Positions 20,150-55,950 of a stretch of DNA of 64,000 nt are shown here, one piece after another. The DNA lies in contig JAQXFO010000027.1 in the NCBI GenBank assembly GCA_029005135.1, positions 21,125-85,124 of the forward strand, read 5' to 3'. The notes beneath the pieces were generated by a model, which did not search any database, was not told the origin of the DNA, and worked only from the letters and a program-made list of their open reading frames with translations. A program made the translations under genes and the position numbers. Origin of the DNA: Lachnospiraceae bacterium (GTDB lineage Bacteria > Bacillota > Clostridia > Lachnospirales > Lachnospiraceae). The number at the start of each line of letters is the position of its first letter. Positions within the stretch are counted from its first letter, which is position 1.

Positions 20150-20178
20150 TTGACAATACAAAGGGTGCATGGTATTAT
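20150..20178 (+). promoter_or_regulatory. Consensus vegetative promoter of the RNA candidate
   Basis: TTGACA (20150-20155), exactly 17 bases, TATTAT (20173-20178). It is the closest match to a sigma-A promoter in the window. Predicted transcription start about 20185. Confidence 0.85.
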
Positions 20179-20184
20179 CATATC

Positions 20185-20450
20185 AACAAAACAAACACGA
20201 CAGACAACACTCAAGGAAATGCATTTCTTGAACACATCACAGGAAACCCGTTAACCCTTATCGATATGGAGGTCGGTCCATTGGAATAAGCAGAGATCTT
20301 CCCAATATTTCCTTAAGGAGGTACGGTCCGACAAAAACTTAATAGAAATGCCCCATATTTCATGAAAGCGAAGGTGTAGACAATGAAATTGCAGGAAATT
20401 CATTAAGGGCCCGATCGAGATAACAGCGTTTCGATCGGGCTCATTTTTTA
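20185..20450 (+). ncRNA. Candidate structured non-coding RNA, about 265 nt
   Basis: Transcript defined by a consensus promoter and a strong intrinsic terminator, with no ORF of note. Predicted helices: TCAAGgAAATG / CATTTCTTGA near 20212-20233; a nested element with outer GTCGGTCC (20272-20279) / GGTCCGAC (20325-20332, one mismatch), inner ATTGG / CCAAT and AAG / CTT; AATGAA / TTCATT near 20382-20404; and the terminator. The nested element contains the palindrome TCCTTAAGGA, which would hide a perfect AAGGAGGT that has no start codon at proper distance. It does not show the hallmarks of SRP RNA, tmRNA, RNase P or a known riboswitch class that I recognise. Identity unknown. Confidence 0.6.
20409..20450 (+). 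terminator. Terminator of the RNA candidate
   Basis: Ten-bp perfect stem GCCCGATCGA / TCGATCGGGC followed by TCATTTTTT. Confidence 0.9.
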
Positions 20451-20516: not shown

Positions 20517-20585
20517 TTTCGTTATAATGGAATGAGAGAGCGGCAGCGACAGAAACGGCGGTTTATGATAAAATACTACGTGTAG

Positions 20586-20601
20586 TGGCACGAAACTTGC
20601 A
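20586..20601 (+). promoter_or_regulatory. Sigma-54 (-24/-12) promoter of the PTS operon
   Basis: TGGCACGAAACTTGCA matches the consensus TGGCAC-N5-TTGCA exactly. It lies 29 bases before the EIIA start codon and the second gene of the operon encodes a sigma-54 activator with an intact GAFTGA motif, so the assignment is strong. Confidence 0.92.
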
Positions 20602-20629
20602 TATATTAATAATAAGGGGGTAATTATGC

Positions 20630-21052
20630 ATGTCTGACTACACATTTGATCCGGCGCTGCCGGGCATCTTACTGTTATCACACGGACCGCTCTGCGAAGC
20701 GATCCTCTCATCGGCGAGGCTGATCGCCGGGTCCTGTGACAATGTGGCGGCTCTGCCGCTGAGAGAAGACGATGATGTGGAGGCCTACGGCGACAAGGCG
20801 ATGGCTTTGTTCAAGAGCATGCCGGAAGGGTCTATCGTCCTTTTTGATCTTCTGGGCGGCACACCCTTTAATCAGCTGATGATGAAGAGCGGCGGCGAAG
20901 CCTTCCCGGGCCTCTGCGGCATGAATCTGCCGATGCTTCTTGAAGCGGTCAGCCTCCGTGAGGTGATGAACGGCGATGAGCTGATCGACACGCTGGCCGA
21001 TTCGGCCAGAGAAGCTGTCGTGAATATCAGGAGCTTCTTCGAGGTGTCATGA
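20630..21052 (+). CDS. PTS EIIA component, mannose/fructose/sorbose family
   Basis: Phosphocarrier of a mannose-family phosphotransferase system, taking phosphate from HPr and passing it to EIIB. In 140 residues the EIIA-Man fold is evident: GILLLSHGPLCEAIL with the phosphorylated histidine (His18), VLFDLLGGTPFNQLM and LCGMNLPMLLEAV, all family signatures. The short N-terminal extension of about ten residues is slightly unusual. ATG 20630 follows AAGGGGG. First gene behind the sigma-54 promoter; stop overlaps the activator start (ATGA). Confidence 0.94.
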   Translation: MSDYTFDPALPGILLLSHGPLCEAILSSARLIAGSCDNVAALPLREDDDVEAYGDKAMALFKSMPEGSIVLFDLLGGTPFNQLMMKSGGEAFPGLCGMNLPMLLEAVSLREVMNGDELIDTLADSAREAVVNIRSFFEVS

Positions 21053-23832
21053 GAAAAGACATCGTATTAGAGTATGTTCTCGAATGCAGCCGGAGCCGGT
21101 CCGATTTTTCGGGCGTGACAGCGACGGAGACGGCCGGGGCACTCGGTATCTGGCGGAACGATGCGGCTGTGGAACTGAATAAACTGGTGGCCGAAGGCAG
21201 GCTGGCACGGAGCGGCAGGAAGAATATCCGTTTTTTTCCGGCTCCGGAGACGACAGCCTCGGCGGCAGTTTCCTCAGAGACTTCGGAAGAGGCCGGCGGC
21301 AGCCCGGAGGACGGTATCGCCCGCTGTGCGGCCTTCCGTGACCTCATCGGTGCCGACGGGAGCCTGAAGTATCAGCTTCGTGTGGCGATGGCCGCGGTTT
21401 CCTATCCGCCCAACGGACTGAATATGCTGATCACGGGCCCCACCGGCAGCGGCAAGAGTCATCTGGCCCGCGTGATCTGGGAGTACGCCAAAGAAGCGGG
21501 GACCTTCCGTCTGCCGAAGGACAGGATACCTTTTGTTGTCTTCAACTGTGCTGAGTATGCGGATAATCCGCAGCTGCTTTTATCGCATCTCTTCGGTTAT
21601 AAGAAAGGCGCGTTTACCGGCGCCTTTGAGGATAAGCCCGGTCTGGTGGAAAAAGCCGACGGCGGCATCCTGTTTCTGGATGAGATCCATTGTCTGTCTG
21701 CCTCGGGGCAGGAGACTTTTTTCACCCTGCTGGACAGCGGGATCTACCGGCGCATCGGCGACAACACACCGCGGGAATCCCATTTTATGCTGATCGGTGC
21801 TACAACGCGGCCTCTGACAGATCTTCTGGAGACGTTTCTCCGTCGAATGCCGGTGGTGATCTCGATGCCGACGCTGTCGGAGAGGCCGAACAAGGAGCGT
21901 CTGGAACTGATATCCTATTTCTACTCACAGGAGGCCGCTCATATCGGCCGGCCGCTGAGGGTCGAGAAAAATGCGCTGAACAGCATTCTGGATTATTCGC
22001 TGCACGCCAACCTGGGCGCCCTGAAGAATATGATCCAGATCTCCTGCGCTAAGGCTTTCCTCCGCCACAGCATGGCGGGGCGCCGGACGGATGAGATAGA
22101 AGTGGGCTTCGCCGATCTGTCCTTCCGGACTTATAACGGCGTTGCTGAGGAAGACGGCTTCAGCGGTGCGGAACGGCATTTTGACAGGGATCTGGTAGCG
22201 TCGCCCGGCGGTATGCCGGCAGGCGCCAGACAGCCCTCCTCCTTTATGGATGTCTATGATTTTGTGGAAAAAAAGATCTCGGACAGTGCCTTGGGCGGGC
22301 ACCAGACCGGCGATATACAGCAGGTGATCGCGTCGGAGATCGATCATTATTATCTTGATCTTGAAAAAGCCCTCGGGGATGATCAGTCGGACAGTCAGAT
22401 GCTGGACAGTGTGCTGTTTCCCAAGGCCATCGGTATCTGCAGTGAGTTCCTCGACAGAGCGTCCCACGCCCTTGGCCGTGTCTATCCTCCGTCGGCGGCC
22501 ACCTTGCTGGCCCTTCATATCAGCCAGTATGTGAGCCGCATGCGCTCCGAGATGCCGGCCTTTCCGGTGGATGTCCGGGGCGGTATGAAGGATTACGATG
22601 AGGAACTGGCCTTTCTGGAGGCCAATCGCAGCTGGCTGTCGGAAACCCTGAAGGTCAGGGTGTCATCGGACGAGATCAACTGTCTGGCGATCTTTCTCAG
22701 ACAGTCGGATGAAGGACGGCATCAGCCATCGGTATGGCTGACGCTGGTATCGGGCAATGACAGTGTGGCCGCCGGCATGGCTGCTCATCTGAACGGCGTG
22801 TATCGCAGCTCCCATATCCACTGGGTCGATTCCAGCAGTTCAGGAAGCCTGTTCCGGGCGGTATGTGACAATATCCGCCTGTTCCACGGTACTGCCGGCA
22901 ATATCATTTTCACCGATGTCAAGGGCCTGCCGACGCTGGAGGCCGAGGTGGAAAAGGAATCCGGCGTTCCCTGCCGCGTCGTGCCGATTCTGGAGAATCG
23001 TCTACTGATGGAAGCCGGCCGCCTGACGCAGAATGCGGAAGCCGCGGCTCTGGATGTGATGCGGGACCGGATCCTGGAAAACTATCGGAAAAGCATGGTG
23101 CGCTTCTTTGACACTGCCGGCATATCTCCGGCGGAGACTGCAGAGGACACCGGTGAGAAGGTCATCCTCTCTCTGTGTGTGACCGGCTGCGGCAGTGCCC
23201 GGAGTATCAAGACGATGCTGGAGCAGAAGCTGTCACATATCCCGAATCTGCGGATCGCGGCCAGAAGCTCTCTTGATACGCCCGCACAGCTGATGGCGGA
23301 GGGAGACATCCTCCTGATCGTCGGGACAGTCAATCCGCATTTGCCGGATGTGCCTTTCTTCACAGCAGACCGGGTGTTCAGCCGGGAGGGCCTGATGGCG
23401 ATCGCCTCCGTCGTGGATGACTGGAGTCTGGATACGGGCAAAAATGCCGGTGAGGATGACGAACTGTCGAAGCTTGAGACGATGAGCCTTTTGGCGGAGA
23501 GTCTGCAGTACATCGCACCCCATGTGGACAGTGAGCAGACAATCGCCTGCATTGAAAGCTTTATCGAAGCCATCGAGACCCGCCATTACGGCCGTGAGAT
23601 GCCGGCGGATGTCCGTGTCCGCTGCTTTATGCACGCGGCCGCGATGCTGGAGCGGATGGCCAACGGCGAAACGCTGGTCATGGATCCGGAGCATGAGAAG
23701 CTGCTTCAGGAGAGAGCCTCCTGGTTTGTCTATCTGGAGGATCTGATCCGCCGGGCCTTTGCTCCCTTTGGAATGGAGATCCCGCGGGCTGAGAATTTTT
23801 ATTTTATGCTTTCTATACCGGAAAGCTTGTGA
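21049..23832 (+). CDS. LevR-like sigma-54-dependent PTS regulator
   Basis: Transcriptional activator of 927 residues that opens sigma-54 promoters and is tuned by PTS phosphorylation. Order: N-terminal HTH (1-65), AAA+ domain with Walker A GPTGSGKS (about 129), the sigma-54 contact loop GAFTGA (187) and Walker B LFLDEIH; PRD1 (about 395-530, candidate His490 in LALHISQYV); an EIIA-Man-like domain (about 560-690); an EIIB-like segment with CVTGCGSA (about 707); PRD2 (about 805-920, His862 in CFMHAAAM). The EIIA-like domain reads TLVSGNDSVAAGMA where LevR proteins have a THG-type active histidine, so that site looks lost. It probably activates its own operon from TGGCAC-N5-TTGCA. Confidence 0.93.
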   Translation: MRKDIVLEYVLECSRSRSDFSGVTATETAGALGIWRNDAAVELNKLVAEGRLARSGRKNIRFFPAPETTASAAVSSETSEEAGGSPEDGIARCAAFRDLIGADGSLKYQLRVAMAAVSYPPNGLNMLITGPTGSGKSHLARVIWEYAKEAGTFRLPKDRIPFVVFNCAEYADNPQLLLSHLFGYKKGAFTGAFEDKPGLVEKADGGILFLDEIHCLSASGQETFFTLLDSGIYRRIGDNTPRESHFMLIGATTRPLTDLLETFLRRMPVVISMPTLSERPNKERLELISYFYSQEAAHIGRPLRVEKNALNSILDYSLHANLGALKNMIQISCAKAFLRHSMAGRRTDEIEVGFADLSFRTYNGVAEEDGFSGAERHFDRDLVASPGGMPAGARQPSSFMDVYDFVEKKISDSALGGHQTGDIQQVIASEIDHYYLDLEKALGDDQSDSQMLDSVLFPKAIGICSEFLDRASHALGRVYPPSAATLLALHISQYVSRMRSEMPAFPVDVRGGMKDYDEELAFLEANRSWLSETLKVRVSSDEINCLAIFLRQSDEGRHQPSVWLTLVSGNDSVAAGMAAHLNGVYRSSHIHWVDSSSSGSLFRAVCDNIRLFHGTAGNIIFTDVKGLPTLEAEVEKESGVPCRVVPILENRLLMEAGRLTQNAEAAALDVMRDRILENYRKSMVRFFDTAGISPAETAEDTGEKVILSLCVTGCGSARSIKTMLEQKLSHIPNLRIAARSSLDTPAQLMAEGDILLIVGTVNPHLPDVPFFTADRVFSREGLMAIASVVDDWSLDTGKNAGEDDELSKLETMSLLAESLQYIAPHVDSEQTIACIESFIEAIETRHYGREMPADVRVRCFMHAAAMLERMANGETLVMDPEHEKLLQERASWFVYLEDLIRRAFAPFGMEIPRAENFYFMLSIPESL

Positions 23833-23865
23833 TTAAGTAAAAAAAAGAGAAAGAGGAAAGCTGTT

Positions 23866-24138
23866 ATGGTCAGTCAGATCGTCGAAGTAAAAAATGCGTC
23901 CGGTCTTCATGCCAGACCCGCCAATGTTTTTGTAAAAGAAGCCCTCAGCCATAAGGGCTGCAAGATCACGTTCAAAAAGGAAGGCGAGGACAGAGTGTTT
24001 CAGGCGCGTTCCATGGTATCAGTACTCCAGGCTGTCGTGAAATGCGGCACCCGCATCGAGATCTTTGCCGAAGGTGAAGATGAAGAGGCCGCGCTGCAGG
24101 CGATGGTCGAGGCGGTGGCGTCGGGACTGGGCGAATAA
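23866..24138 (+). CDS. ptsH: HPr phosphocarrier, operon-specific
   Basis: Small soluble phosphocarrier (90 residues) between EI and EIIA. GLHARPA carries the EI-dependent phosphorylation site His15. The helix-2 region reads QARSMVSVLQAVVKCG; Ser49 aligns with regulatory Ser46 of Bacillota HPr, so control by HPr kinase is possible, though the surrounding sequence is divergent and there is a small insertion before it. ATG follows AAAGAGGAAAG. It is placed between the activator and EI genes of this PTS operon, implying a dedicated phosphate chain or the cell's only one. Confidence 0.94.
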   Translation: MVSQIVEVKNASGLHARPANVFVKEALSHKGCKITFKKEGEDRVFQARSMVSVLQAVVKCGTRIEIFAEGEDEEAALQAMVEAVASGLGE

Positions 24139-24150
24139 CGGAGGCACAGC

Positions 24151-25821
24151 ATGGGCAGATTATTGAAGGGCAGAGGCTACTCGGAAGGCCTGGCGCTGGC
24201 TGAGGTGCTGATCTACAGCCGCGAACTTCCTCCGGTGCCGCAGGACCCCGCCTCCGATCCTGAAGACGATGTTCGGCGGCTCGGCGAGATCCTTGACAAG
24301 GGAGCTAAAGAGCTTGAGTCGCTCTATGAGGATGCCGTCGGGCGTATGGGCGAGGCTCAGGCTGAAATTTTTCTGGCTCATCAGACGATCCTCGAAGACG
24401 ATTATTCGATCCGTGAGCCGATCGAGGCCCTGATCCGCGAGGAAAAAATGAATACGGCAGCGGCCATCGACCGTCAGTTCCGTGAACTGGCGGAGATGTT
24501 CCGTTCTATGGATGATGAACTGATGTCGGAGCGTGCCGCCGATTTTGACGATATCCGGCAGATGCTTCTCCGGATAGCGCTGAGCAGCACCGTTCAGGAT
24601 ATTTCAAAGCTTGATAAGGATGCCATCATTGCGGCGGAGGAACTGACCCCGTCGGATACTGTTCGGATGGATATGGCTCATATCAAAGGTATTGCCACCA
24701 GACTGGGAGGCCCCACGGCCCACAGCGCCATCATCGCACGCTCTCTGGGCATTCCCTATGTGTCGGGGATCGATGACGCGGCCGAAGGCGGTCTGGAAGG
24801 CCATCCGGCCATCCTTAACGGGACGGAAGGCTGGCTTCTTGTCGATCCCGATGAGGATGAGGTGTGCCGCTTCAAAGAGAGCCGCGCTGAGATGGAAGCG
24901 CAAATGAAAGACCTGGAGGACTATATTCATAAGCCGTCTCAGACGGCGGACGGCAGGTCTCTGGAGATTTGTGCCAATATCGGTACGCCTGCGGAAGCCG
25001 CGGAGGCGGTGTCAGCCGGCGCCGACGGTATCGGCTTGTTCCGCAGTGAGTTCCTCTTCATGGACCGCGATGATCTGCCGTCGGAGGAGGAGCAGTACCT
25101 GGCTTACCGGAAAGCGCTGGCCGCCCTTGAGGGACGTCCGCTCATCGTCAGAACACTGGATATCGGCGGCGACAAGAAACTGCCGGCTCTGCCGATGCCG
25201 CAGGAGGACAATCCCTTCCTGGGACTTCGGGCCATTCGTTTGACCATGGCCAATCCGGCTCTTTTCCGGACTCAGCTTCGCGCTCTTCTGAGGGCTTCGG
25301 CGGAAGGGAATCTGCGAATCATGTTCCCGATGATTTCCTCACCGGAAGAACTGGCGTCGGCGAAAGCCATTCTTAATGAAGAGAAGGCCGCGCTGGCTGC
25401 GGAGGGACTCAGCGTCGATCCGCCGGTGGGCATGATGATCGAAGTGCCGTCAGCGGCGGTTCTGGCCGATGTTTTTGCCCGGGAAGTGGATTTTTTCTCG
25501 ATCGGTACCAACGATCTGACTCAGTACACCCTGGCTGTCGAAAGAAACAATGCGGCTGTGGCCGATCTGTACCGGCCGGATCATCCGGCTGTGCTTCGCC
25601 TGATCGCGATGACGGCGCAGGCGGCCGTCAGAGCCGGTATTCCCTGCGGCATGTGCGGGGAATCCGCCGGTGATCCGGCGTTGGCACCGGCCTTTGTCGG
25701 CATGGGCGTGACGGAACTGTCGATGTCCCCGAAGCGGATCACAGCGGTGAGAAAGCTCCTGGGCAGCCTGACGTGGGAGGAATGCCGCGACATGGCGGAG
25801 GCTCTGATCGGCGCAAAATGA
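24151..25821 (+). CDS. ptsI: PTS enzyme I (PEP-protein phosphotransferase)
   Basis: Transfers phosphate from PEP to HPr. The 556-residue protein has the full family layout: N-terminal HPr-binding helical domain, the phosphohistidine loop GGPTAHSAIIARS (His191), linker, and PEP-binding barrel with GIGLFRSEFLFM, RTLDIGGDK, the FFSIGTNDLTQYT signature and the active cysteine in GMCGES (Cys502). Slightly shorter than typical EI (about 570). Starts 12 bases after HPr, ATG after CGGAGGCAC. Presence of EI inside a sugar-specific operon is less usual than a separate ptsHI operon. Confidence 0.96.
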   Translation: MGRLLKGRGYSEGLALAEVLIYSRELPPVPQDPASDPEDDVRRLGEILDKGAKELESLYEDAVGRMGEAQAEIFLAHQTILEDDYSIREPIEALIREEKMNTAAAIDRQFRELAEMFRSMDDELMSERAADFDDIRQMLLRIALSSTVQDISKLDKDAIIAAEELTPSDTVRMDMAHIKGIATRLGGPTAHSAIIARSLGIPYVSGIDDAAEGGLEGHPAILNGTEGWLLVDPDEDEVCRFKESRAEMEAQMKDLEDYIHKPSQTADGRSLEICANIGTPAEAAEAVSAGADGIGLFRSEFLFMDRDDLPSEEEQYLAYRKALAALEGRPLIVRTLDIGGDKKLPALPMPQEDNPFLGLRAIRLTMANPALFRTQLRALLRASAEGNLRIMFPMISSPEELASAKAILNEEKAALAAEGLSVDPPVGMMIEVPSAAVLADVFAREVDFFSIGTNDLTQYTLAVERNNAAVADLYRPDHPAVLRLIAMTAQAAVRAGIPCGMCGESAGDPALAPAFVGMGVTELSMSPKRITAVRKLLGSLTWEECRDMAEALIGAK

Positions 25822-25846
25822 TGCTTGCTTTGAAGGAGGTTTTCCT

Positions 25847-26614
25847 ATGACATATGAAGGCAAAGTCGTGATTCTTACCGGCGCGGGCGGCGGCATCGCC
25901 TCGGCGATGGCCCGGAAGTTCGCATCGCTTGGTGCCTCTCTGGCACTTTTGGATATCGCCGAAGAACCGGTGAAAAAGCTGGCAGCTCAGCTGGCACTGC
26001 CGGCGGACCGCGTCATGACGGCGGCCGCTGATGTGTCCGATGAGGACAGTGTGCGTCGGACTGTGGAGAAGGTTCGTGAGTATTTCGGCCGCATCGACGT
26101 GCTTGTCAACACGGCCGGTATTCCCGGCCCCAGTGCCCGGGTCCAGGATTACAGCTATGCGGATTGCCGGCGTGTTTTTGAAGTGAATGTCTTCGGCACC
26201 TTCCTGATGATGAAATACGTCCTGCCGGTGATGCAGGCACAGAAGAAGGGGGCTGTCCTCAATATCGGTTCGGTTTCCGGTATGGTGGGTTATCCTTATG
26301 AATCCGCCTACGGCGCCAGCAAGGCCGCCATCATTCATCTGACCAAAAACGCTGCCAGTGAAAACGGCGGCAACGGTGTGCGTATCAACTGCCTGTCACC
26401 GGGCTGGGTCAATACGGCGATGATGAAAACGATCGTCGACAGCTATGTGGATGTCGGTATTGCCGATACCTCCGAGAATGTCACCCTCGGTCCGATGGGA
26501 CGTCCCGGTGAACCGGCAGAAATGGCAGAAGTGGCCGCCTTTCTCTGCTCCGATGACGCTTCCTATGTCAACGGCTCCAACTGGCTGGCAGACGGCGGCA
26601 TGACTCTGGGATGA
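25847..26614 (+). CDS. Short-chain dehydrogenase/reductase (SDR)
   Basis: NAD(P)-dependent oxidoreductase of 255 residues acting on an alcohol or keto group, here probably of the imported sugar or its product. Classical SDR features: cofactor loop TGAGGGIASAMA, LLDIAEEP (acidic residue after strand 2, favouring NAD+), NTAGIPG, catalytic Ser in NIGSVSG and the YxxxK pair Tyr155/Lys159 in YGASKAA. The C terminus SYVNGSNWLADGGMTL is standard. Strong RBS AAGGAGG. Located between EI and the FAD reductase, 13 bases from the latter. Confidence 0.9.
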   Translation: MTYEGKVVILTGAGGGIASAMARKFASLGASLALLDIAEEPVKKLAAQLALPADRVMTAAADVSDEDSVRRTVEKVREYFGRIDVLVNTAGIPGPSARVQDYSYADCRRVFEVNVFGTFLMMKYVLPVMQAQKKGAVLNIGSVSGMVGYPYESAYGASKAAIIHLTKNAASENGGNGVRINCLSPGWVNTAMMKTIVDSYVDVGIADTSENVTLGPMGRPGEPAEMAEVAAFLCSDDASYVNGSNWLADGGMTLG

Positions 26615-26626
26615 AAGGAGAAAACT

Positions 26627-28339
26627 ATGACATTGGACAAGCATCTGAAAGTGGTTGTGGTCGGCGGTGTGGCCGGCGGTGCTTCCGCAGCGGCCCGCAT
26701 CAAGCGCCTCGACGAGAAAGCGGAAGTGGTGGTGCTGGAAAAGGGTGAGCATGTCTCATTTTCAAACTGCTGTCTGCCCTATCATCTGAGCGGTACCGTT
26801 GAAAAAAGCGAATCACTGATCCTGATGACACCGCAGGCTTTTAAAGTCAAACATGATATTGATGTCCGCGTCAAAAGCTGCGTGACGGCCATTGACCGGC
26901 AGAAGAAGACGGTCACTGTCGACGGTCCTGACGGCGTTTACGAAGAAAGCTACGACAAACTGGTTCTGTCTCCCGGAGCTTCGCCGATCGTACCCGGCGG
27001 ACTGAAAGGCGCTGACAAGGCCCATGTCTTTACTGTGAGAAATGTGACGGATATCCGGGCAATCAAGGCTAAGATCGACGATCCCGCCGTGGAGAAGATC
27101 GCCGTTGTCGGCGGCGGCTTCATCGGCATCGAAGTGGCTGAGAATCTGCAGATGGCCGGCAAGACGGTCACCATCATCGAGATGGCACCCCAGATCCTGG
27201 CCCCCTTTGATGAGGACATGGTTCAGATCCTTCACAAGGAACTGGATGATAACGGTATCCGGCTGATGGTCGGTACTGAACTTCTGTCGATCGGCGATAA
27301 GACCGTCACGGTCCGCCGTGACGGCCGGGAATCCCGTCTGAAGGCTGATGCGGTCGTTCTGGCCATCGGTGTGCGGCCCGAGACAGCACTGGCCCGGGAA
27401 GCCGGTCTGGAGATCGGGGAGACCGGGGCGATACGGGTCGATGCCCAGTATCGCACCAACGATCCGGATATCTATGCCGTGGGTGATGCCGTGGAAGTCT
27501 ATATGGCACAGACCAGGACCGTCGGGCGGCTGCCTCTGGCCGGTCCGGCTCAGATGGAAGCAAGGGCGGCTGCGGATCATATTTGCGGCATCGCCGACAG
27601 AAACGAAGGCTTTATCAGTGCGATGTGTCTCCGTGTCTTCCGCCAGAATGCGGCGGCGGCCGGTCTGAACGAAACGCAGTGCCGACGGGCCGGTCTGAAT
27701 TACGATTCCGTCCTGCTGTTCCCGACGGATAAGGTCGGTATCATGCCGGGATCGCATTACATGGCCCTCAAGATCCTCTTTGAAAAGCCGACGGGACTCG
27801 TCCTCGGTGCCCAGGCTGTCGGTCCTGGCGACGTGGTGGGCCGCATCAACACCGCAGCGGCAGTGATCCGCCTGAAGGGAACGCTGTACGATCTGAAGGA
27901 TCTGAATCTCTGTTATTCGCCGGTCTACAACACCGCGAAGGATCCGGTCAATATGGCAGCCCTGGTGGGTATCAATATCCTTGAAAACCGGGTCCGCCAG
28001 GTTCATGTCAGAGAAGTGAGAGGTCTGGTGGAACAGGGTGCCTTTATCGTCGACGTGCGGGAGAAGAAGGAATACGCCGCCGGTCATCTGAAGGGTTCGG
28101 TCAACATTCCGCTGACAGAACTCAGAGCCCGAGCCGGAGAGATACCGAAGGATGTGCCGGTTTATCTCCACTGCCGCTCAAGCCAGCGGAGCTATTACGC
28201 GATCCGCTGTCTCCAGGGCCTGGGCTGGGATAACCTGTACAACATCAGCGGTTCTTATCTGGGCATCAGCCTGTATGAATATTTCCGGGATAAAACGGAA
28301 GGCCGCGAGCCGATCCTTGACAATTACAATTTCAGATAA
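26627..28339 (+). CDS. CoA-disulfide reductase-like FAD oxidoreductase with rhodanese domain
   Basis: Pyridine nucleotide-disulfide reductase of 570 residues with a C-terminal rhodanese domain, the CoADR-RHD layout. FAD loop VVVGGVAGGASAAARI, redox cysteine in SFSNCCLPYHLSG (Cys48, with Cys49 next to it), NAD loop VVGGGFIGIEVAENL and FAD loop IYAVGDAVEV. Residues about 465-560 are rhodanese with VYLHCRSSQRS (Cys516). Relatives reduce CoA disulfides, persulfides or polysulfides with NAD(P)H. Its place inside a PTS operon is unexpected and hints at sulfur or redox chemistry with the substrate, or a redox-protective role. Confidence 0.9.
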   Translation: MTLDKHLKVVVVGGVAGGASAAARIKRLDEKAEVVVLEKGEHVSFSNCCLPYHLSGTVEKSESLILMTPQAFKVKHDIDVRVKSCVTAIDRQKKTVTVDGPDGVYEESYDKLVLSPGASPIVPGGLKGADKAHVFTVRNVTDIRAIKAKIDDPAVEKIAVVGGGFIGIEVAENLQMAGKTVTIIEMAPQILAPFDEDMVQILHKELDDNGIRLMVGTELLSIGDKTVTVRRDGRESRLKADAVVLAIGVRPETALAREAGLEIGETGAIRVDAQYRTNDPDIYAVGDAVEVYMAQTRTVGRLPLAGPAQMEARAAADHICGIADRNEGFISAMCLRVFRQNAAAAGLNETQCRRAGLNYDSVLLFPTDKVGIMPGSHYMALKILFEKPTGLVLGAQAVGPGDVVGRINTAAAVIRLKGTLYDLKDLNLCYSPVYNTAKDPVNMAALVGINILENRVRQVHVREVRGLVEQGAFIVDVREKKEYAAGHLKGSVNIPLTELRARAGEIPKDVPVYLHCRSSQRSYYAIRCLQGLGWDNLYNISGSYLGISLYEYFRDKTEGREPILDNYNFR

Positions 28340-28350
28340 CAGGAGATGCC

Positions 28351-28788
28351 ATGAGTGATAACCATATGACGGAAGAGAAAGCCCTGGCTCTGATGGAAGA
28401 GGGCTTTCACTGCTCACAGGTTGTGTTCGGCCACCTGGCCGGCCGCCTCGGATTTGACGAGGCCCTGGCCCGCCGCCTGACAGCGGGGCTCGGCGCCGGC
28501 TTCTGTCACGGAGATACCTGCGGTGCCGTGGCCGGAGCCGTGCTGGCTCTCGGCCTGGCGCAGGGGTTTGACAAACCGGATGCCGACACGGATGCCGCAC
28601 TTTTTGCGGCAGTGAGGGAACTGGAGAAGGTCTTTGAGGAGGAGCACGGGAGTCTGTTGTGCCGCGAGCTTCTGGGCGGCTTCGACAGGGCGGATCTTTC
28701 CGCCGTGTCCGGGGAACACACCTACGACAACTGCCCGGCCTACTGCACGCTGGCCTGTGCGCTGGCGGAGAAGCGCCTGGGGCTTTAA
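28351..28788 (+). CDS. C_GCAxxG_C_C family redox-active protein
   Basis: Cysteine-rich protein of 145 residues of the C_GCAxxG_C_C family (PF09719). HCSQVVFGHLAGRLGF supplies the first cysteine, GDTCGAVAGAVLALGL the diagnostic GxCGAxxGA motif, and CRELLGG and DNCPAYC the C-terminal cysteines. The family is thought to bind a metal or cluster and often adjoins redox genes; function unknown. ATG follows AACAGGAG 11 bases after the CoADR-like gene, so the two are co-expressed. Confidence 0.88.
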   Translation: MSDNHMTEEKALALMEEGFHCSQVVFGHLAGRLGFDEALARRLTAGLGAGFCHGDTCGAVAGAVLALGLAQGFDKPDADTDAALFAAVRELEKVFEEEHGSLLCRELLGGFDRADLSAVSGEHTYDNCPAYCTLACALAEKRLGL

Positions 28789-28920
28789 CCCCCGGCCGTA
28801 ATCCGTATCATAATGAATTGTCTGTAACCGCCGACAGGCGGATGAAAGGTCCTGTGCTTTTGGTATTGTCCAAAGCGGTGCAAACCTCGAAACAGAAAAC
28901 GCAAGAAAGGAGGGAGAAGC

Positions 28921-29397
28921 TTGAGAAATGTGGTATTAACAAGAATCGACGAACGATTGATTCACGGACAGATCATGACATCCTGGCTGAAACTTTGCAG
29001 TGCCAACAAGATTCTTATCATTGACAAGATGTCGGCAACAAATGCGTTCATGAAGCGTATTCTGTTTGCGGCGGCGCCGAAGGATATAGAACTTCTGGTT
29101 ATGCAGGAAGATGAAGCGGCCGCCTGGCTCAAGGAGGATGCCGATCCCGGTGAAAAAGTTCTTGTGCTGACCAAAGTGCCGAAGCCTCTGCTGGATATGA
29201 TCCAGGCAGGCATTCCGTTTACCGAGATCATCCTCGGCAATATGGGCGGCGCTGCCGGCAGAAAACGTTTTAACAAGAATATTTCCGCCAGTCCCGAAGA
29301 GATCGGGCACCTCAAGGAGATCGTCGCCGCCGGCGTCAAGATCTACTGTCAGATGGTGCCGTCCGATTCGAAAGAAGACATTGTGAAATTGTTCTGA
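28921..29397 (+). CDS. PTS EIIB component, mannose/fructose/sorbose family
   Basis: Phosphotransfer subunit that hands phosphate to the incoming sugar, 158 residues. VLTRIDERLIHGQIMTSWL is the family signature with phosphohistidine His15. The later EIILGNMGGAAGRKRFNK and GVKIYCQMVPSDSKEDI also fit. It begins with TTG six bases after AAGGAGGG; the next in-frame candidate (GTG 28930) would shorten the first strand. It follows a 130-base gap in which I see no clear terminator or sigma-54 site. Confidence 0.94.
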   Translation: MRNVVLTRIDERLIHGQIMTSWLKLCSANKILIIDKMSATNAFMKRILFAAAPKDIELLVMQEDEAAAWLKEDADPGEKVLVLTKVPKPLLDMIQAGIPFTEIILGNMGGAAGRKRFNKNISASPEEIGHLKEIVAAGVKIYCQMVPSDSKEDIVKLF

Positions 29398-29423
29398 TTC
29401 TTTTAGTGAGAGAGGAGAAATGC

Positions 29424-31028
29424 ATGGAACTGCATATTTGGCAAATTGTTCTTATTGCTCTTTACTACTGCCTCGGTGAGAGTGCCTGGCCCTTCGGCTC
29501 CATGGGTACCTGGGCTACCGTCAACAGACCGCTGGTTTCCGGTCTTGTCGTCGGTCTCATTCTCGGTGATCCGGTCACCGGTACGATCATCGGTGCCACG
29601 ATCAACATCATGTATCTCGGTATTATTTCCGCCGGCGGTTCTCTTCCGTCCGACTCCGGTATGGCCGGTGTTCTCGGTACGGCCTTCGCCCTGATCGGCG
29701 GCCTTGATGTCAATGCCGCTCTGGCGCTGGCTGTCCCGCTGGGCCTCTTCGGTTCCGTTCTGTGGATCCTGACCATGACAGCGCAGTGCTTCTGCATTCC
29801 GCTGGCCGACAAGTGGGTCGAGGAAAATAAGCCGAACCGTCTGATGCTGATCAACCTGTGGATCCCCTATGCCATCAAATGGGTCATTCGCTTCATCTTC
29901 GTGTATGTTGTTCTGTACTTCGGCTCTGATGCCGTCGTCAAAGTCTGTGAGATGCTGGAAGGCCCGGCGATGGATGCTCTGGGCGTCATGGGCGGCCTGC
30001 TTCCTGCCGTTGGTATCGGTCTCATGCTTCTGACCATCTTCAAGGGCAATGCCCGCTACTTCCTGCTGCTGGGCTTCCTGGCCACGAGCTTCCTGGGCCT
30101 CAATACGATCGCGGTTGCTCTGACCTTCGGTATCATCGCTATCCTGATCGTCGGCTTCACACCGGAAGATTTCGAAGCCTTCAAGAATGTGGAAGACACC
30201 AACGATACGGCTTACAAGCTGATCAGCAAGAAAGATCTGGTTCGTTCCTGGGTACGCTGGGAATACTACAACGAATCCTGCTACAACTATGAGAGAATGC
30301 AGGGCCTTGGCTTCTGTACTGCCATGGTTCCGGTTCTCAACAAGATCTATGCCGGTGATGCGGAAGGCATGAAGGGCGCTCTGAAGCGTCACATCATGTT
30401 CTTCAATACCGACCACAACTTCGGCGGTATGATCCTCGGTATCTGCACCTCGATGGAAGAGCAGAAGAAACTCGGCGCTGATATTCCGGATGAAGCCTTT
30501 GTTTCTCTGAAGTCCGGTCTGATGGGCCCGTGCGCCGGTATCGGTGATACGCTGTCTCAGGTCGTCCTTCTGCCGACTCTGGCTGTTATCTTCATCAACC
30601 TGGCTCAGAAGGGTGCTGTCTGGGCTCCGATCGCCTACACGGTCCTGTTCGTCGGCATCTTCTATTCTGTCGGTTACTGGATGCTGTTCGTCGGTTACAA
30701 GAACGGCGGTGAAGCCGTCCTGAAGCTGATGGAAGGCGGTCTGTTCGACAAGGTCATCAAAGTGGCCAATATTCTCGGCTGTGCCGTGGCCGGCGCTCTG
30801 ATCTGCAGCTATGTCTCCTTCAACTGGAATGTCATCATGATGAAGGAAGAGGTTGAAATGTTCAACCTTCAGACAGGCGTGTTCGATGCGATCCTGCCGA
30901 ATGCCATGCCGCTTGTCCTGACGATGGGCATCTACTATGCCGCCAAGAAGGGTGTCAAGAGCTCCTACATCACCTTCGGCGTGATGATCATCGGCTTCAT
31001 CCTGGGTATCCTGGGCCTTATCGCCTGA
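29424..31028 (+). CDS. PTS EIIC-EIID fusion protein, mannose family
   Basis: Membrane permease of a mannose-family PTS in which EIIC and EIID are one protein of 534 residues. Residues about 1-255 are EIIC: LYYCLGESAWPFG, LVSGLVVGLILGDPVTG and GATINIMYLGIISAGGS are EIIC signatures. After a short charged linker, EIID starts near 265: SKKDLVRSWVRWEYYNESC, YERMQGLGFCTAMVPVL, FFNTDHNFGGMILGI and LMGPCAGIGDTLSQVVLLP. In most such systems C and D are separate. ATG 29424 after AGAGGAG is preferred over the track's GTG. The sequence is continuous, with no frameshift sign. Sugar specificity is unknown. Confidence 0.93.
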   Translation: MELHIWQIVLIALYYCLGESAWPFGSMGTWATVNRPLVSGLVVGLILGDPVTGTIIGATINIMYLGIISAGGSLPSDSGMAGVLGTAFALIGGLDVNAALALAVPLGLFGSVLWILTMTAQCFCIPLADKWVEENKPNRLMLINLWIPYAIKWVIRFIFVYVVLYFGSDAVVKVCEMLEGPAMDALGVMGGLLPAVGIGLMLLTIFKGNARYFLLLGFLATSFLGLNTIAVALTFGIIAILIVGFTPEDFEAFKNVEDTNDTAYKLISKKDLVRSWVRWEYYNESCYNYERMQGLGFCTAMVPVLNKIYAGDAEGMKGALKRHIMFFNTDHNFGGMILGICTSMEEQKKLGADIPDEAFVSLKSGLMGPCAGIGDTLSQVVLLPTLAVIFINLAQKGAVWAPIAYTVLFVGIFYSVGYWMLFVGYKNGGEAVLKLMEGGLFDKVIKVANILGCAVAGALICSYVSFNWNVIMMKEEVEMFNLQTGVFDAILPNAMPLVLTMGIYYAAKKGVKSSYITFGVMIIGFILGILGLIA

Positions 31029-31096
31029 CCGGGAGGCTGAATCCCAAATTTTCTGCGGCTTTGCACAGGGCACACCTCTGACGGGGCTGTGCCGCC

Positions 31097-31129
31097 CGGG
31101 GCGTATCCTTTGGGAATGCGTCCCGGGAC
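31097..31129 (+). repeat. Strong hairpin without U-run between EIICD and next gene
   Basis: CCCGGGGCGTAT / ATGCGTCCCGGG, about 12 pairs with two G-U pairs, loop of about nine bases. No U-run follows on either side. Candidate RNA-processing or mRNA-stability element separating the transport genes from the downstream ones. Confidence 0.6.
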
Positions 31130-31141
31130 AGAGGTCTGTCT

Positions 31142-31594
31142 ATGGAAAAAGAATTTCTGGATTTTCTGCCGCTTTCGGAAGTATCGGTTAAGGGTACCCG
31201 GAAACGGCGCATCGGTTACAAACCCTACACCGGCATTGCCCTGCTGGCGGCCTTTGCTGTCTTTGCCGTCTGCATTCCCAACACGATCTGCCGGATCATG
31301 GGTATTTTTGTTATGGCTGTGGCCGCCCTTGTGCAGTTTACCGTCAGGGACAGGCATGTGATGGATATCTATACGGAAGGCGTCCTGTTCTATGAGCACA
31401 GGGATGACAGCCGCGCCGCCTTTTTTCCGTATACGTCGATCGAGGGCTGGAGCGTCAGACGCAACAAGGGCAGCGGACAGACCGTCCTTCTGCTGCTGGA
31501 CGATCAGCGCTTTGTCATGACCGATACCTTTTCCCTGGTCAAGGCGGAAAATGTGCTGTTTTCCGTGATGCCGGGAAAAGAAATACGAGCTTGA
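31142..31594 (+). CDS. Small membrane protein with C-terminal PH-like domain
   Basis: One hundred fifty residues. A charged N terminus, two hydrophobic helices (IALLAAFAVFAVCIPN and IMGIFVMAVAALVQF) and then a beta-rich soluble part (VLFYEHRDDSRAAFFPYTSIEGWSV) that resembles YcxB/bPH2-type PH-like domains. No catalytic motif. Membership of the PTS operon is suggested by position (113 bases after EIICD, same strand, no terminator with U-run) but not proven. Function unknown. Confidence 0.6.
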   Translation: MEKEFLDFLPLSEVSVKGTRKRRIGYKPYTGIALLAAFAVFAVCIPNTICRIMGIFVMAVAALVQFTVRDRHVMDIYTEGVLFYEHRDDSRAAFFPYTSIEGWSVRRNKGSGQTVLLLLDDQRFVMTDTFSLVKAENVLFSVMPGKEIRA

Positions 31595-31636
31595 AAATAA
31601 TATCCGCTGAGGATAATGATAAACAGGAGGAAAGCT

Positions 31637-32020
31637 ATGAAACTTCATAATGTAGGTATGTTCGTCAACGATCTTGACGCTGCCGTCAATTTCTTCGTGG
31701 ATTATTTCGGTGCCGCGATCCATTATCAGGAAGAGGATGAATCCGGTTTCCGTGAAGTGATCCTGAAGTTTAACGACAGCGCTGACGGCGCCAAGCTGGA
31801 GATCATGACGAAACCGACCGTAGTTGATGACAAAAAGGATGCCAACAGAACCGGCTATGCCCATATCTGCATCCGTGTCGACAGCCGTGAAAAGCTAGAT
31901 GAGATCATCGATAAGATCCACAAGGCCGGCTATGAGGTCCAGTATGAACCGGCCACTAACGGCGGCAAGGAGATCCGGGCCATCACCTTTGAAGACAACG
32001 TGATTGAAGTCAACTGCTGA
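31637..32020 (+). CDS. VOC-fold (glyoxalase/bleomycin resistance) protein
   Basis: Metal-dependent VOC protein of 127 residues. Two beta-alpha-beta-beta-beta halves are visible: LHNVGMFVNDLDAAVNFFV...KLEIMTKP and YAHICIRVDSREKLDEIIDK...ITFEDNVIEVNC. The usual four metal ligands appear kept: His4, Glu in KLEIM, His in YAHIC and Glu in NVIEV. Family members are glyoxalases, epimerases, dioxygenases or resistance proteins. ATG 31637 follows AGGAGGAAAG. Within the PTS operon it may isomerise or epimerise a sugar-derived intermediate; this is inference. Confidence 0.85.
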   Translation: MKLHNVGMFVNDLDAAVNFFVDYFGAAIHYQEEDESGFREVILKFNDSADGAKLEIMTKPTVVDDKKDANRTGYAHICIRVDSREKLDEIIDKIHKAGYEVQYEPATNGGKEIRAITFEDNVIEVNC

Positions 32021-32062
32021 TCAGTACAGATGACATTCAAGATAGAAAAGAGGGAAAAAATT

Positions 32063-32851
32063 ATGAAACAGAACGAATTTTTCAAGAAGAAAATGGTTAT
32101 CGGCATGGTTCATCTGGATCCGCTGCCGGGCAACGCCTCCTATAAGGGTAATAAGGACGAGATTATCGCCAATGCCGTCCGCGATGCCCATACCCTGATC
32201 GACTGCGGCTGCGATGCCATCATGGTCGAGAATTTCAGCGACTGGCCCCAGTACAGTACGGAGGTTCCGCTGGAGGGTTATTCCGTTCAGCTGGTTGCTG
32301 CGGCCAAGATCAAGGAATTCTGCCCGGTTCCCTTCGGTATCAATATCGAAATGAATGCCTGGAAGCAGGAATGGATCATGGCTTACAGCCTGAATGCCGA
32401 CTTTATCCGTGTGGAGGCTTTCGTTGACAATCGTGCCGGCTCCTTCGGTTATATTGAAGGCTGCTCCACGGGCATGATGAATCTGATGGCTCAGCTGCCG
32501 TCTCCGGAGACGATGATTTTCGCTGACGTCCATACGCAGGAGACCTACGGCATGCCGGATGTCCCGATCAATGAGCTGGCCGGCAACGCCAGAAACCACG
32601 ATGCCTCCGCTGTCGTCGTGACGGAAAACGATCAGTGCCGCCGCATCACCGTTGAGGATGTCAAATCCATGCGTGAAGTTATGGGTGACTTCCCGATCAT
32701 CGTCGGCTCCGGCGTCAAACCTGAAAATGTCCTTGACTATATGGAATACGCCGACGCCGTTATCGTCGGCCGCGGCTTCAAGAAGGATCACAAGGTGGAT
32801 CCGGACCTTGTTAAGGAATTCATGGCGATCGTCCGCTCCAAATACAACTAA
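32063..32851 (+). CDS. btpA: BtpA/SgcQ family TIM-barrel protein
   Basis: Protein of 262 residues of the BtpA family (PF03437). MVIGMVHLDPLPGN at the N terminus, CDAIMVENFSDWP, PFGINIEMNAW, SADFIRVEAFVD and VGSGVKPENV are clear family segments. BtpA was named for photosystem I assembly in cyanobacteria, but the same family occurs in sugar operons, as SgcQ next to the E. coli Sgc PTS. A TIM-barrel phosphosugar enzyme role is therefore plausible but unproven. ATG 32063 after AGAGGGA. Last gene of the PTS operon, ended by a strong terminator. Confidence 0.9.
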   Translation: MKQNEFFKKKMVIGMVHLDPLPGNASYKGNKDEIIANAVRDAHTLIDCGCDAIMVENFSDWPQYSTEVPLEGYSVQLVAAAKIKEFCPVPFGINIEMNAWKQEWIMAYSLNADFIRVEAFVDNRAGSFGYIEGCSTGMMNLMAQLPSPETMIFADVHTQETYGMPDVPINELAGNARNHDASAVVVTENDQCRRITVEDVKSMREVMGDFPIIVGSGVKPENVLDYMEYADAVIVGRGFKKDHKVDPDLVKEFMAIVRSKYN

Positions 32852-32875
32852 GGCACAGAAAAAGCATTCCGGATT

Positions 32876-32905
32876 CCGGCGTTCCGTGAGGGACGCCGGT
32901 TTTTC
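32876..32905 (+). terminator. Terminator of the PTS/BtpA operon
   Basis: Perfect stem CCGGCGTTCC / GGGACGCCGG (one G-U) with loop GTGA, followed by TTTTTCTG. Confidence 0.92.
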
Positions 32906-51901: not shown

Positions 51902-54900
51902 ATGGTACAGAAAAACAGAATGAGCCTAATCAGAAAAAGGCTGATAGCAGGTATTATGACGGCAGCGATGCTGATCCCCCTGGTCATCGGCGGTACCGGT
52001 GTGACGGTCAGGGCCGCCCAGTCGGTTGATGTGGAATTGTGTATCCGACCGGGATTGAGTATGTCTCTTGACGGTACCGAAGGCGATACGATCGATGATA
52101 TGCTGACGGCGAATCCGGAAGATGTCTTTGTCTGGGATGAGGAAACACAGACAACCAAGCCGGTTACCTGCAAAACGCTGGACGACGTTGTCGAGGCTTC
52201 GTCTATGTATGTCTATGACAGAAAGTCTGACAGCATGGTGAAATACACCGCCTCTTCCTGGCTGGACAGCAGCGGCAGCCTTTATGACGGCTCAACACCG
52301 ATCATGGCCGCCGACAGCGGCAAACAGCTCAGGGCTCACTGGGATGACCTTGACTGGTACAGCGTGAATCTGACAAACGATCCGTCTCAGTCTTACGTCA
52401 TGAGCCTTCGCAGCGGCACGGATCCGAAGTATCTCAGCCTTACCGACGATAACAACGGCATTATGACGGGCATTTCGGTGACGCCGGTGCAGGCCGGACT
52501 TGGCTGGTATGAGGGAACCGTGACCACGGAGCCTATCAGCGGCAATAGCGTTATGCTCTCGGTGGACTGCTCCTGTGAAAGATTTGAACTTTCCTATTAT
52601 GATAACGCTTTCACGGAGAATACTGGAAGTTTCTATGTCGATACCGTCAGCGCCTCCATGACGGTGGCCGACGCCCTGATAACCATGGGCATCAACGCTG
52701 TTGACGTGGAAGTTGCCCTGGGCGGCGAGTTCCTGGGCTGGGGCACCGTGGTTGAAGATGAGAATGGCTTGAGTGTGGTCGACGACTCCGTACCGCTTCT
52801 GACAACAGCACAGCTTATGGCGCTTCCCGTCGATAAGTCGCTGCATTTTTGTGTCGTGTCAACGCTGGATGCGGCCGAACCGCAGTTCCTTTATCTGATG
52901 ACCGGGACCGGGTCGCTGACCTGGGATGAGGTTTGGGACGATAAGACGATCTCGCGAAAGGAAAACGAGAGAAGCTTTGGTCTTCTGAATGTACCGAGCC
53001 GGGTGGATGACTGCATGCAGGTCTATGACGGCGTCTCGAACGTCGAAGTGGCAGCCGCTGACGATGCCGGCCGGACATTCCTCGGCTGGAAGCAGGCCAG
53101 GATCCTGACAGATGGCGAGGGTTTTACCTATGTGGACACCAACGTCTTCGGGGACGCGGCGGTCTATGAGGATAAACCGCTGTACTCCACCGCGGATCTG
53201 ATGGCCATGTCCTGCAGCGACCTTCGCCTTATCAGTCAGATGCTGGGTGATCCCGCGTATGAAGAAGGGCCTACCGCCGTTTTTGCGGCTCAGTATGACG
53301 GCAATACGGCTGATTATTATCAGGCTGTTTTCTTTGAATCTCCTTTTTTCTGCAAGGTGACGGGGACATACGATGATTATGATGAGACAGGCAGTCCGGT
53401 AACGAACAATTTCGAAGAAATCTGGATGCCGGCCGGTTTCGGTATTCGCCGTGACGGTGAGACCGCGGCGGAGGCGGTCTGCAGAGAACACGGCAGGACC
53501 ATCTCAGACATGTCAGATCCGATCTACGACTGGGACGGCACGTTGATCGTTGATTTTGAACCCTTTAGAGGCTGGCGCCTGCTGGATGACAGCTATGAGT
53601 TTGTCGATGACAAATTGTATACCACCCAAGAGGCCCTGGCCTATCGCATGACAGTCGACGGACCGTCTGAGCTCCATTTTGTGGATGCGCGAGCCGCGGA
53701 ACGCGAGGATGACGGCAGCTTCTTTGATCAGCCGGCTCCGGTTCTGATCCACGCCGGCAACGGTGAGTTCACGTTGGCGTCCAAGGTCGATCCCTCCGAT
53801 ACGCTGACTACTGACTGGACGGATGTTACCGAAGTCAATGCCGGGACAAGAGCGTCTGTCGAGATCACCGCTGTGGCGCGCGATGGCTTTACCTTTGACG
53901 GCTGGGATGTCATCAGCTATGAGAGCGGCGGGGTTTTTGAGGGTATGCCGGGTCAGGAAGGCGTCTACGACGGCGGAGTCTATGATGTCACTCTGAGTCG
54001 GGATGTCTATGAGACGGGCATGCCGGTTTTCACGTATGCCGCATTATATGACTGTACGGTATTGGATGAAGGTGTCTCCACAGAAGTGGTGAATGGTTAT
54101 CTTAACGATCCGGAAAATTACCCCAAGCTCTATCTGCGTGCCCGCTGGCTCTATGATAATGAAGGCGCGGTCCTGAAAACAAAAACAGAACCCCTGACCA
54201 CCGTGCCGGCCGAGCTGTCCTCGGTCTACAGCTCGGCCGAAGAGATCGAGGCTGACCTCCATCAGGCACTGGCTGAGCTGCCTGACGCCTATGAACCCGG
54301 TGATGTCGTTGACGGCTATGTGTATACGGTGGACGATGAAGGCGAACATATCCTCAGCGAAGAGGAGATCGCCTCACAGGAAGGCCCCGTCTATGTGAAG
54401 CTGCCGTATCCCGAAGGCAGCACAAGTCAGGGCCGCTTTATCATTCTTCATATGATCGATTCCGGTGAAAAGGCCGGTGAGATCGAAACACTCTACCCCG
54501 AAGCCAATCCCGACGGCCTTGTGGTTCAGGTCAACGGCACATCGCCTTTCCTGGTCGGTTATATGAGTGTACGGGATGAGGACGAGGACGAAAAGCTGAT
54601 TCTGGCCGCCGGCGATGACCGTTACGAAACGAATGTCATCATTGCTGCGGAAGCCTTCCCCGAAGGCAGCGATACCGTCGTGATCGTGACCGGCAAGAAT
54701 TTCCCGGATGCGCTGACAGCCAATGGCTTTGCCGGTTCCGTCGGCACAGGTGTCCCGATCCTGATGTCGAAGCTTCAGGCTCTGCCGGACTGCACAAAAA
54801 CACTGCTGACGGATATCTGGAACGGTTCTGTCAAGAAGGCCATCGTCATCGGCGGCGGTTTCACCGACACCTTCAAGGCTGATCTGAGACGATGCGGCAT

Positions 54901-55599: not shown

Positions 55600-55950
55600 T
55601 CAGGCAGGCAGAACATACGGCCGCGGCAGCAGCAGCTGACGAGGAAAGTCCGGGCTTCACAGGGCAGGATGCCGGATAACGTCCGGTAGGGGTAACCCTC
55701 AGGAAAGCGCAGCAGAAATGATACCGCCGCCTCCGGGCGGTAAGGGTGAAATGGCAGTGTAAGAGACTACCGCCTCCGCGGTAACGGGGAGGGCATATGC
55801 AAGCCCCATCCGAAGCAAGGCTGAAAGGGAACGATACAGCGGCCCGCTGTGTTCCGGGTTAGCCGCTTGAGCCGTCCGGCAACGGGCGGCCTAGACAGAT
55901 GGCCGTACACGACATAACCCGGCTTACCGTTCTGCCTGTTCCATAGTTTT
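55600..55950 (+). ncRNA. rnpB: RNase P RNA (class A)
   Basis: Catalytic RNA that matures tRNA 5' ends. The universal core GAGGAAAGTCCGGGCTTC is exact, followed by GGTAGGGGTAACCCTC-type P-region, AAGGGTGAAATGGCAGTGTAAGAG and GGCATATGCAAGCCC (pairs J/P segments). P1 is formed by CAGGCAGAAC (55605-55614) and GTTCTGCCTG (55929-55938). The size (about 345) suits the bacterial A type. It lies between the cell-wall protein and the MerR gene with its own terminator. Confidence 0.96.

Follow-up and report, generated by a model that had tools for sequence, protein, structure and literature searches.

Does an operon that carries EI and HPr genes of its own, together with a LevR-like activator and several metabolic genes, form a self-contained sigma-54-controlled PTS, and which substrate could it import? 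The operon lies in a 64,000-nucleotide stretch of contig JAQXFO010000027.1 from a Lachnospiraceae bacterium (GCA_029005135.1), which as a whole we call the window. Labels beginning with L denote the compared loci, and C86 is another contig of the same genome. The gene content, the promoter and the distribution among relatives point with good probability to a catabolic PTS cassette, self-contained and spread horizontally, that combines a private phosphorelay, a LevR/sigma-54 switch and an SDR-VOC-BtpA route, with its redox genes as later additions.

Gene content of the operon

All genes of the operon (window 20586–32900) are encoded on the (+) strand in the following order.

20575–20586, +, palindrome ACTACGTGTAGT, candidate operator or UAS, sharing one base, the first, with the −24 box; sole copy in the window
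20586–20601, +, sigma-54 promoter TGGCACGAAACTTGCA; exact −24/−12 match, conserved in L075 and L077
20630–21052, +, EIIA, mannose family (PF03610, 2.2e-17)
21049–23832, +, LevR-type sigma-54 activator with AAA+ and PRD domains (PF00158, 6.9e-37; PF00874)
23866–24138, +, private HPr (PF00381, 5.6e-24)
24151–25821, +, private EI (TIGR01417, 565 bits)
25847–26614, +, SDR dehydrogenase (PF13561, 8e-64)
26627–28339, +, CoA-disulfide reductase-rhodanese fusion (CoADR-rhodanese), by domain matches; outside the conserved core, absent from relatives
28351–28788, +, C_GCAxxG_C_C protein (PF09719, 7.8e-24); outside the conserved core
28921–29397, +, EIIB, sorbose/mannose family (PTSIIB_sorb), TTG start (PF03830, 6.5e-42)
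29424–31028, +, fused EIIC-EIID permease (EII-Sor plus EIID-AGA; PF03609 and PF03613)
31142–31594, +, orphan of 150 aa with no Pfam match; L076 has a homolog (34%) in the corresponding position
31637–32020, +, VOC-superfamily (glyoxalase-like) enzyme (PF00903, 2.7e-12)
32063–32851, +, BtpA/SgcQ-family TIM-barrel enzyme of the BtpA-2 type (PF03437, 1.5e-49)
32876–32899, +, intrinsic terminator; 10-bp stem, 8 GC pairs, T tail

The original prediction listed a full chain of EI, HPr, EIIA, EIIB and EIIC-EIID, a LevR-like activator, a set of metabolic genes and a strong terminator closing the operon. Each of the genes is present with a family match, and the terminator is located as listed. EIIA-man, EIIB-sorb, EIIC and EIID domains (PF03610, PF03830, PF03609, PF03613) place the transporter in the EII-Man family. 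The 150-aa orphan was missing from that earlier list. Its homolog at the matching place in L076 argues that the gene is not noise, and members of this family stand in two genera between the genes for EIIC-EIID and VOC (window 31142–31594, L076:4400–4873). The lack of a sugar kinase had been taken as an oddity but is expected, because PTS import itself phosphorylates the substrate. Intergenic gaps range from −4 to 42 bp, with the exceptions of 132 bp between the C_GCAxxG_C_C gene and EIIB and 113 bp between EIIC-EIID and the orphan. The GC content of the operon does not clearly differ from that of its flanks and thus gives no foreign signature, so that it is the patchy distribution that makes the case for transfer.

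Elsewhere in the window, we observe a class A RNase P RNA at 55605–55942 (306 bits). Adjoining it at 51902–55576 is a gene for a secreted-looking protein of 1224 aa, whose C-terminal part resembles cell-wall-binding repeats by eye.

A sigma-54 promoter joined to a palindrome

The exact TGGCAC-N5-TTGCA noted ahead of the operon is found at position 20586 and is the only exact match in the window; shuffling of the upstream region reached such a match in 0 of 300 cases. Genome-wide, the plain pattern occurs three times and its reversed control once, so that conviction comes from its place before the LevR operon. A −24/−12 promoter also precedes EIIA in L075 and L077. In L075, L076 and L077, a second one lies in the gap between EI and EIIB. 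The gaps of the window operon contain no second sigma-54 promoter, the best candidate having 4 mismatches, the same as in shuffles.

The palindrome occurs in the form ACTACNNGTAGT at all six cluster promoters (the window and five from orthologous clusters) with 0–2 mismatches. Its register is fixed, as the last base is in every case the first T of TGGCA. This candidate operator or UAS, ACTACNNGTAGTGGCAC, is probably the binding site of LevR or of a co-regulator. Across seven whole genomes, the extended motif TAGTGGCAY-N5-TTGC returns the six cluster sites and one more in Dielma, with no match for the reversed control; in the window's own genome it returns the cluster site alone. A search for a separate upstream activator site 100–250 bp before the promoter gave a perfect palindrome in L077, at a distance of about 106 bp, and none in the window and L075. 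Just before EIIA in L094, L095, L138 and L152, which are further mannose PTS operons of the LevR type, the −24 box is abutted by an inverted repeat of another sequence, ATACACAT...ATGTGTAT. Since such operons carry different sequences at the −24 box, some with an inverted repeat of their own, this placement may be a wider habit of these activators.

LevR has intact GAFTGA and Walker A motifs and is 53–54% identical to the L075 and L077 proteins. An AAA+ activator with GAFTGA and PRD beside EII genes, a −24/−12 promoter and rpoN in the genome are features of a LevR-type sigma-54 PTS operon. The activator does not score as DagR, the activator of the D-glucosaminate PTS, with 346 bits for NF047795 against a cut-off of 1400. 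The genome encodes a single RpoN, and LevR is its only strong sigma-54 activator; three other PF00158 matches are weak, and at least the first reads as a Clp-type ATPase from its N-terminus. Of 37 genomes of the genus, this one counted, 3 have an RpoN above the cut-off. A single RpoN, a single strong activator and the rarity of rpoN in the genus suggest that sigma-54 may serve mainly this operon here, which would make it an unusually clean circuit for study.

Just before the operon, a sigma-70-like promoter (20150–20178, 11 of 12 positions, TG before the −10 element) is followed about 230 bases further by a strong terminator at 20407–20442. The two may delimit a small RNA of ~260 nt. The region 20150–20450 has a fold z-score of −2.3 and matched no Rfam family.

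A conserved core in distant genomes

Among 99 near relatives, no other genome holds a close copy of the permease, all other matches being below 40% identity. The wide scan covered a collection with one genome per species (85,462 species) and recovers an EIIC-EIID of 61–78% identity in Dielma fastidiosa (78%), one Flavonifractor MAG, two Candidatus Galloscillospira MAGs and two Erysipelotrichaceae MAGs. Where contigs suffice, these clusters share a core of EIIB, EIIC-EIID, VOC, BtpA-1, SDR and BtpA-2, which in the two Erysipelotrichaceae can be followed only as far as the contigs reach. EIIA, LevR, HPr and EI lie upstream of the core in Flavonifractor and in one Galloscillospira, and the contig of the other Galloscillospira begins inside HPr. 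In Dielma, a PRD/EIIA2 regulator replaces LevR and the cluster contains neither HPr nor EI; L079 likewise keeps the core without HPr, EI and LevR beside it. Therefore, the private relay is not obligatory. The expectation that the gene set is kept in distant genomes thus holds for the core and, in some genomes, for LevR, HPr and EI, and fails for CoADR-rhodanese and C_GCAxxG_C_C, which occur in none of them.

The window departs from its relatives in three respects. Its SDR follows EI, while the SDR homologs of the relatives are located between the two BtpA genes; CoADR-rhodanese and C_GCAxxG_C_C come next; and BtpA-1 is missing. BtpA-1 was not found anywhere in the own genome, where BtpA-2 is the only BtpA match at E≤1e-25. 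The presence of the core set in distant Firmicutes suggests a catabolic pathway that has not been described before.

Private EI and HPr

HPr keeps the His15-type motif GLHARPA, and the active-site motifs of both HPr and EI look intact. The original prediction had asked whether the genome holds another ptsHI. It does: there are two EIs and five HPr-domain matches, and the second EI adjoins an HPr on C86. The operon pair is hence not the sole pair of the cell, and its EI and HPr, being distinct from the housekeeping copies, complete a private phosphorelay. In a tree of 25 EIs, the private EIs of the window, Flavonifractor and both Galloscillospira form one clade with support of 100/100, and the long branches flagged by the program fall outside it. 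As the other EIs of the same genomes are placed elsewhere, EI came with the cassette, either by descent or by transfer. EI and HPr thus travel with one transporter as a unit. From these sequences, we infer phosphate transfer from private EI and HPr to EIIA and EIIB.

An unlikely, though still appreciable, alternative is that private EI and HPr are mainly regulatory and form an insulated relay to the PRDs of LevR and to EIIA, leaving most of the phosphorylation for transport to the housekeeping ptsHI. This would fit L075 and L077, where EIIA-LevR-HPr-EI is the first block under promoter P1 and EIIB, EIIC-EIID and the enzymes stand under their own sigma-54 promoter P2, and it would also fit Dielma, which keeps transporter and enzymes without private EI/HPr and LevR. 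In the window, however, no second sigma-54 promoter separates the regulatory from the transport block, and the intact-looking motifs of HPr and EI also speak against a merely regulatory role.

The same arrangement raises the question of two adjacent operons, EIIA-LevR-HPr-EI-SDR-CoADR-CGCA and EIIB-EIIC/D-orphan-VOC-BtpA, which we consider improbable. The 132-bp gap before EIIB is the site of the second sigma-54 promoter in the relatives and makes a single transcript through 32851 less certain. Yet neither such a promoter nor a strong terminator is seen in this gap of the window. Moreover, both blocks adjoin in L075 and L077, each with the same sigma-54/palindrome promoter, and in L076 HPr and EI occur with the second block.

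Redox genes as probable local additions

CoADR-rhodanese and C_GCAxxG_C_C had been counted as part of the system. Their absence from every orthologous cluster marks them as a local feature. In the class, 174 of 391 genomes have a CoADR-rhodanese, and its 29 best matches all lack a C_GCAxxG_C_C gene, an SDR and EIIB within ~1.5 kb. The protein stays below the cut-off of the CoA-disulfide reductase equivalog TIGR03385 (393.7 against 578.8 bits), and its functional assignment stands on similarity to 3icr and 8a56. That both genes follow SDR with gaps of 11–12 bp and that C_GCAxxG_C_C is annotated as putatively redox-active could indicate thiol- or persulfide-linked uptake, in which they process a sulfur-containing or thiol-conjugated sugar, but with both genes absent from all orthologous clusters and CoADR-rhodanese widespread and not PTS-linked, this is very improbable.

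Enzymes of the core and the likely substrate

The SDR is 45–49% identical to the cluster SDRs versus 38% to another SDR, and it retains the YxxxK motif and cluster-specific stretches. VOC is 54–66% identical to its counterparts in the relatives and is putatively glyoxalase- or methylmalonyl-CoA-epimerase-like, with ambiguous metal ligands and a model of moderate quality (pLDDT 70). BtpA, 67–75% identical to the BtpA of the relatives, belongs to the BtpA/SgcQ family (PF03437, 169 bits against a cut-off of 30). Its model (pLDDT 88.6) is a TIM barrel that resembles phosphate-handling barrels such as KDPG aldolase, ThiE, TrpA and PRAI. A single-sequence search of the PDB gave no relatives for BtpA, and a profile search gave only weak phosphate-barrel matches, to the C-terminal phosphate-binding half of TrpA, OMP decarboxylase and PcrB. 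A search of a viral fold library gave nothing informative. The only invariant lysines are 14 and 244, neither of them in strand 6 (187–190), so that we reject a KDPG-type Schiff-base lysine and claim no aldolase mechanism of this type. The literature searched on SgcQ or BtpA held nothing useful on function and no assigned catalytic activity.

Outside the cluster, BtpA genes of plasmids and class genomes occur in other contexts, including nucleoside-ABC/PfkB operons, without a second copy of the cluster. In L069–L072, family members share operons with a nucleoside-type ABC transporter and with isochorismatase-like, PfkB, phosphorylase-like, Fe-ADH-like and TrpA-like genes (named from N-termini).

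In the EIID tree, the core clade is sister to operons that encode Zn-ADH and class II aldolase and in many cases also HPr and EI. In L. salivarius, a more distant relative lies beside ADH, rpe, fsa and tkt, which together look like a pentitol set. By this analogy, we tentatively propose a polyol or ketose as substrate, with low confidence.

In the proposed mechanism, private EI and HPr would relay phosphate from PEP to EIIA and EIIB of the mannose family. Import and phosphorylation of a small carbohydrate, most likely a polyol or a sugar of the ketose type, would fall to the fused EIIC-EIID. LevR would activate the operon via sigma-54 and is probably itself controlled through phosphorylation of its PRDs by the PTS. 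SDR would oxidize or reduce the phosphorylated product, and VOC with one or two BtpA TIM-barrel enzymes would isomerize or cleave it into central metabolism, with CoADR-rhodanese and C_GCAxxG_C_C as presumed later local additions. Proteins of the BtpA/SgcQ family are widespread. With two of them linked to PTS, SDR and VOC in a conserved cluster, a small, testable pathway is at hand. A bolder reading is a new mobile and fully insulated PTS pathway that combines an EI-HPr relay of its own, a sigma-54 circuit dedicated to it and maybe the host's only reason for rpoN, a composite promoter in which activator site and −24 box are merged, and a novel paired-BtpA route for an undescribed phosphorylated substrate. 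In this full form we hold it to be doubtful.

Comparison with known systems

The claim that private EI and HPr make this a PTS layout not described before was too strong, given the precedents of E. coli fry, the clostridial DhaQ regulon and other mannose-family clusters with HPr and EI. For the present gene combination with its composite promoter, a literature search limited to open-licence PMC found no description.

E. coli fry, too, is a PTS operon that encodes EI and HPr activities itself. FryA is a multiphosphoryl transfer protein that combines EI, HPr and EIIA activities. In contrast to the window operon, fry has this single fused protein and fructose-type EIIs, and it lacks LevR and BtpA. 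E. coli sgc (sgcXBCQAER) places the BtpA-family SgcQ beside PTS EII genes of unknown substrate, but SgcQ is only 25% identical to the BtpA of the window, the epimerase SgcE stands in place of SDR and VOC, and the EII family differs from the mannose family.

The SorC-regulated mannose-family clusters (L080, L081, L083–L086) have EIIC/D of 45–50% identity and private HPr and EI. They differ in their SorC-type regulator, in Zn-ADH and aldolase that replace SDR, VOC and BtpA, and in EIs that fall elsewhere in the tree. HPr and EI genes were likewise seen in the mannose-family PTS clusters of L105, L109 and L122; most of this whole group also has Zn-ADH and class II aldolase. In the genomes of L080, L083 and L086, the cluster EI seems to be the only EI.

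The clostridial sigma-54 DhaQ regulon, which contains dhaKLM and ptsI, also places an EI gene under sigma-54 in a dedicated pathway, but it serves dihydroxyacetone phosphorylation and no transport EIIs are listed for it (PMC6615313). PRD-type sigma-54 activators of PTS operons are described in Clostridiales (PMC6615313). The LevR/levDEFG-type mannose PTS operons, namely lev of B. subtilis and the clostridial LevR, GfrR and AtlR regulons (PMC6615313), share with the window operon the PRD-bearing sigma-54 activator beside PTS genes and the −24/−12 promoter. The window operon differs from them in having private EI and HPr, the SDR-VOC-BtpA set, a palindrome fused to the −24 box and EIIC-EIID in one protein.
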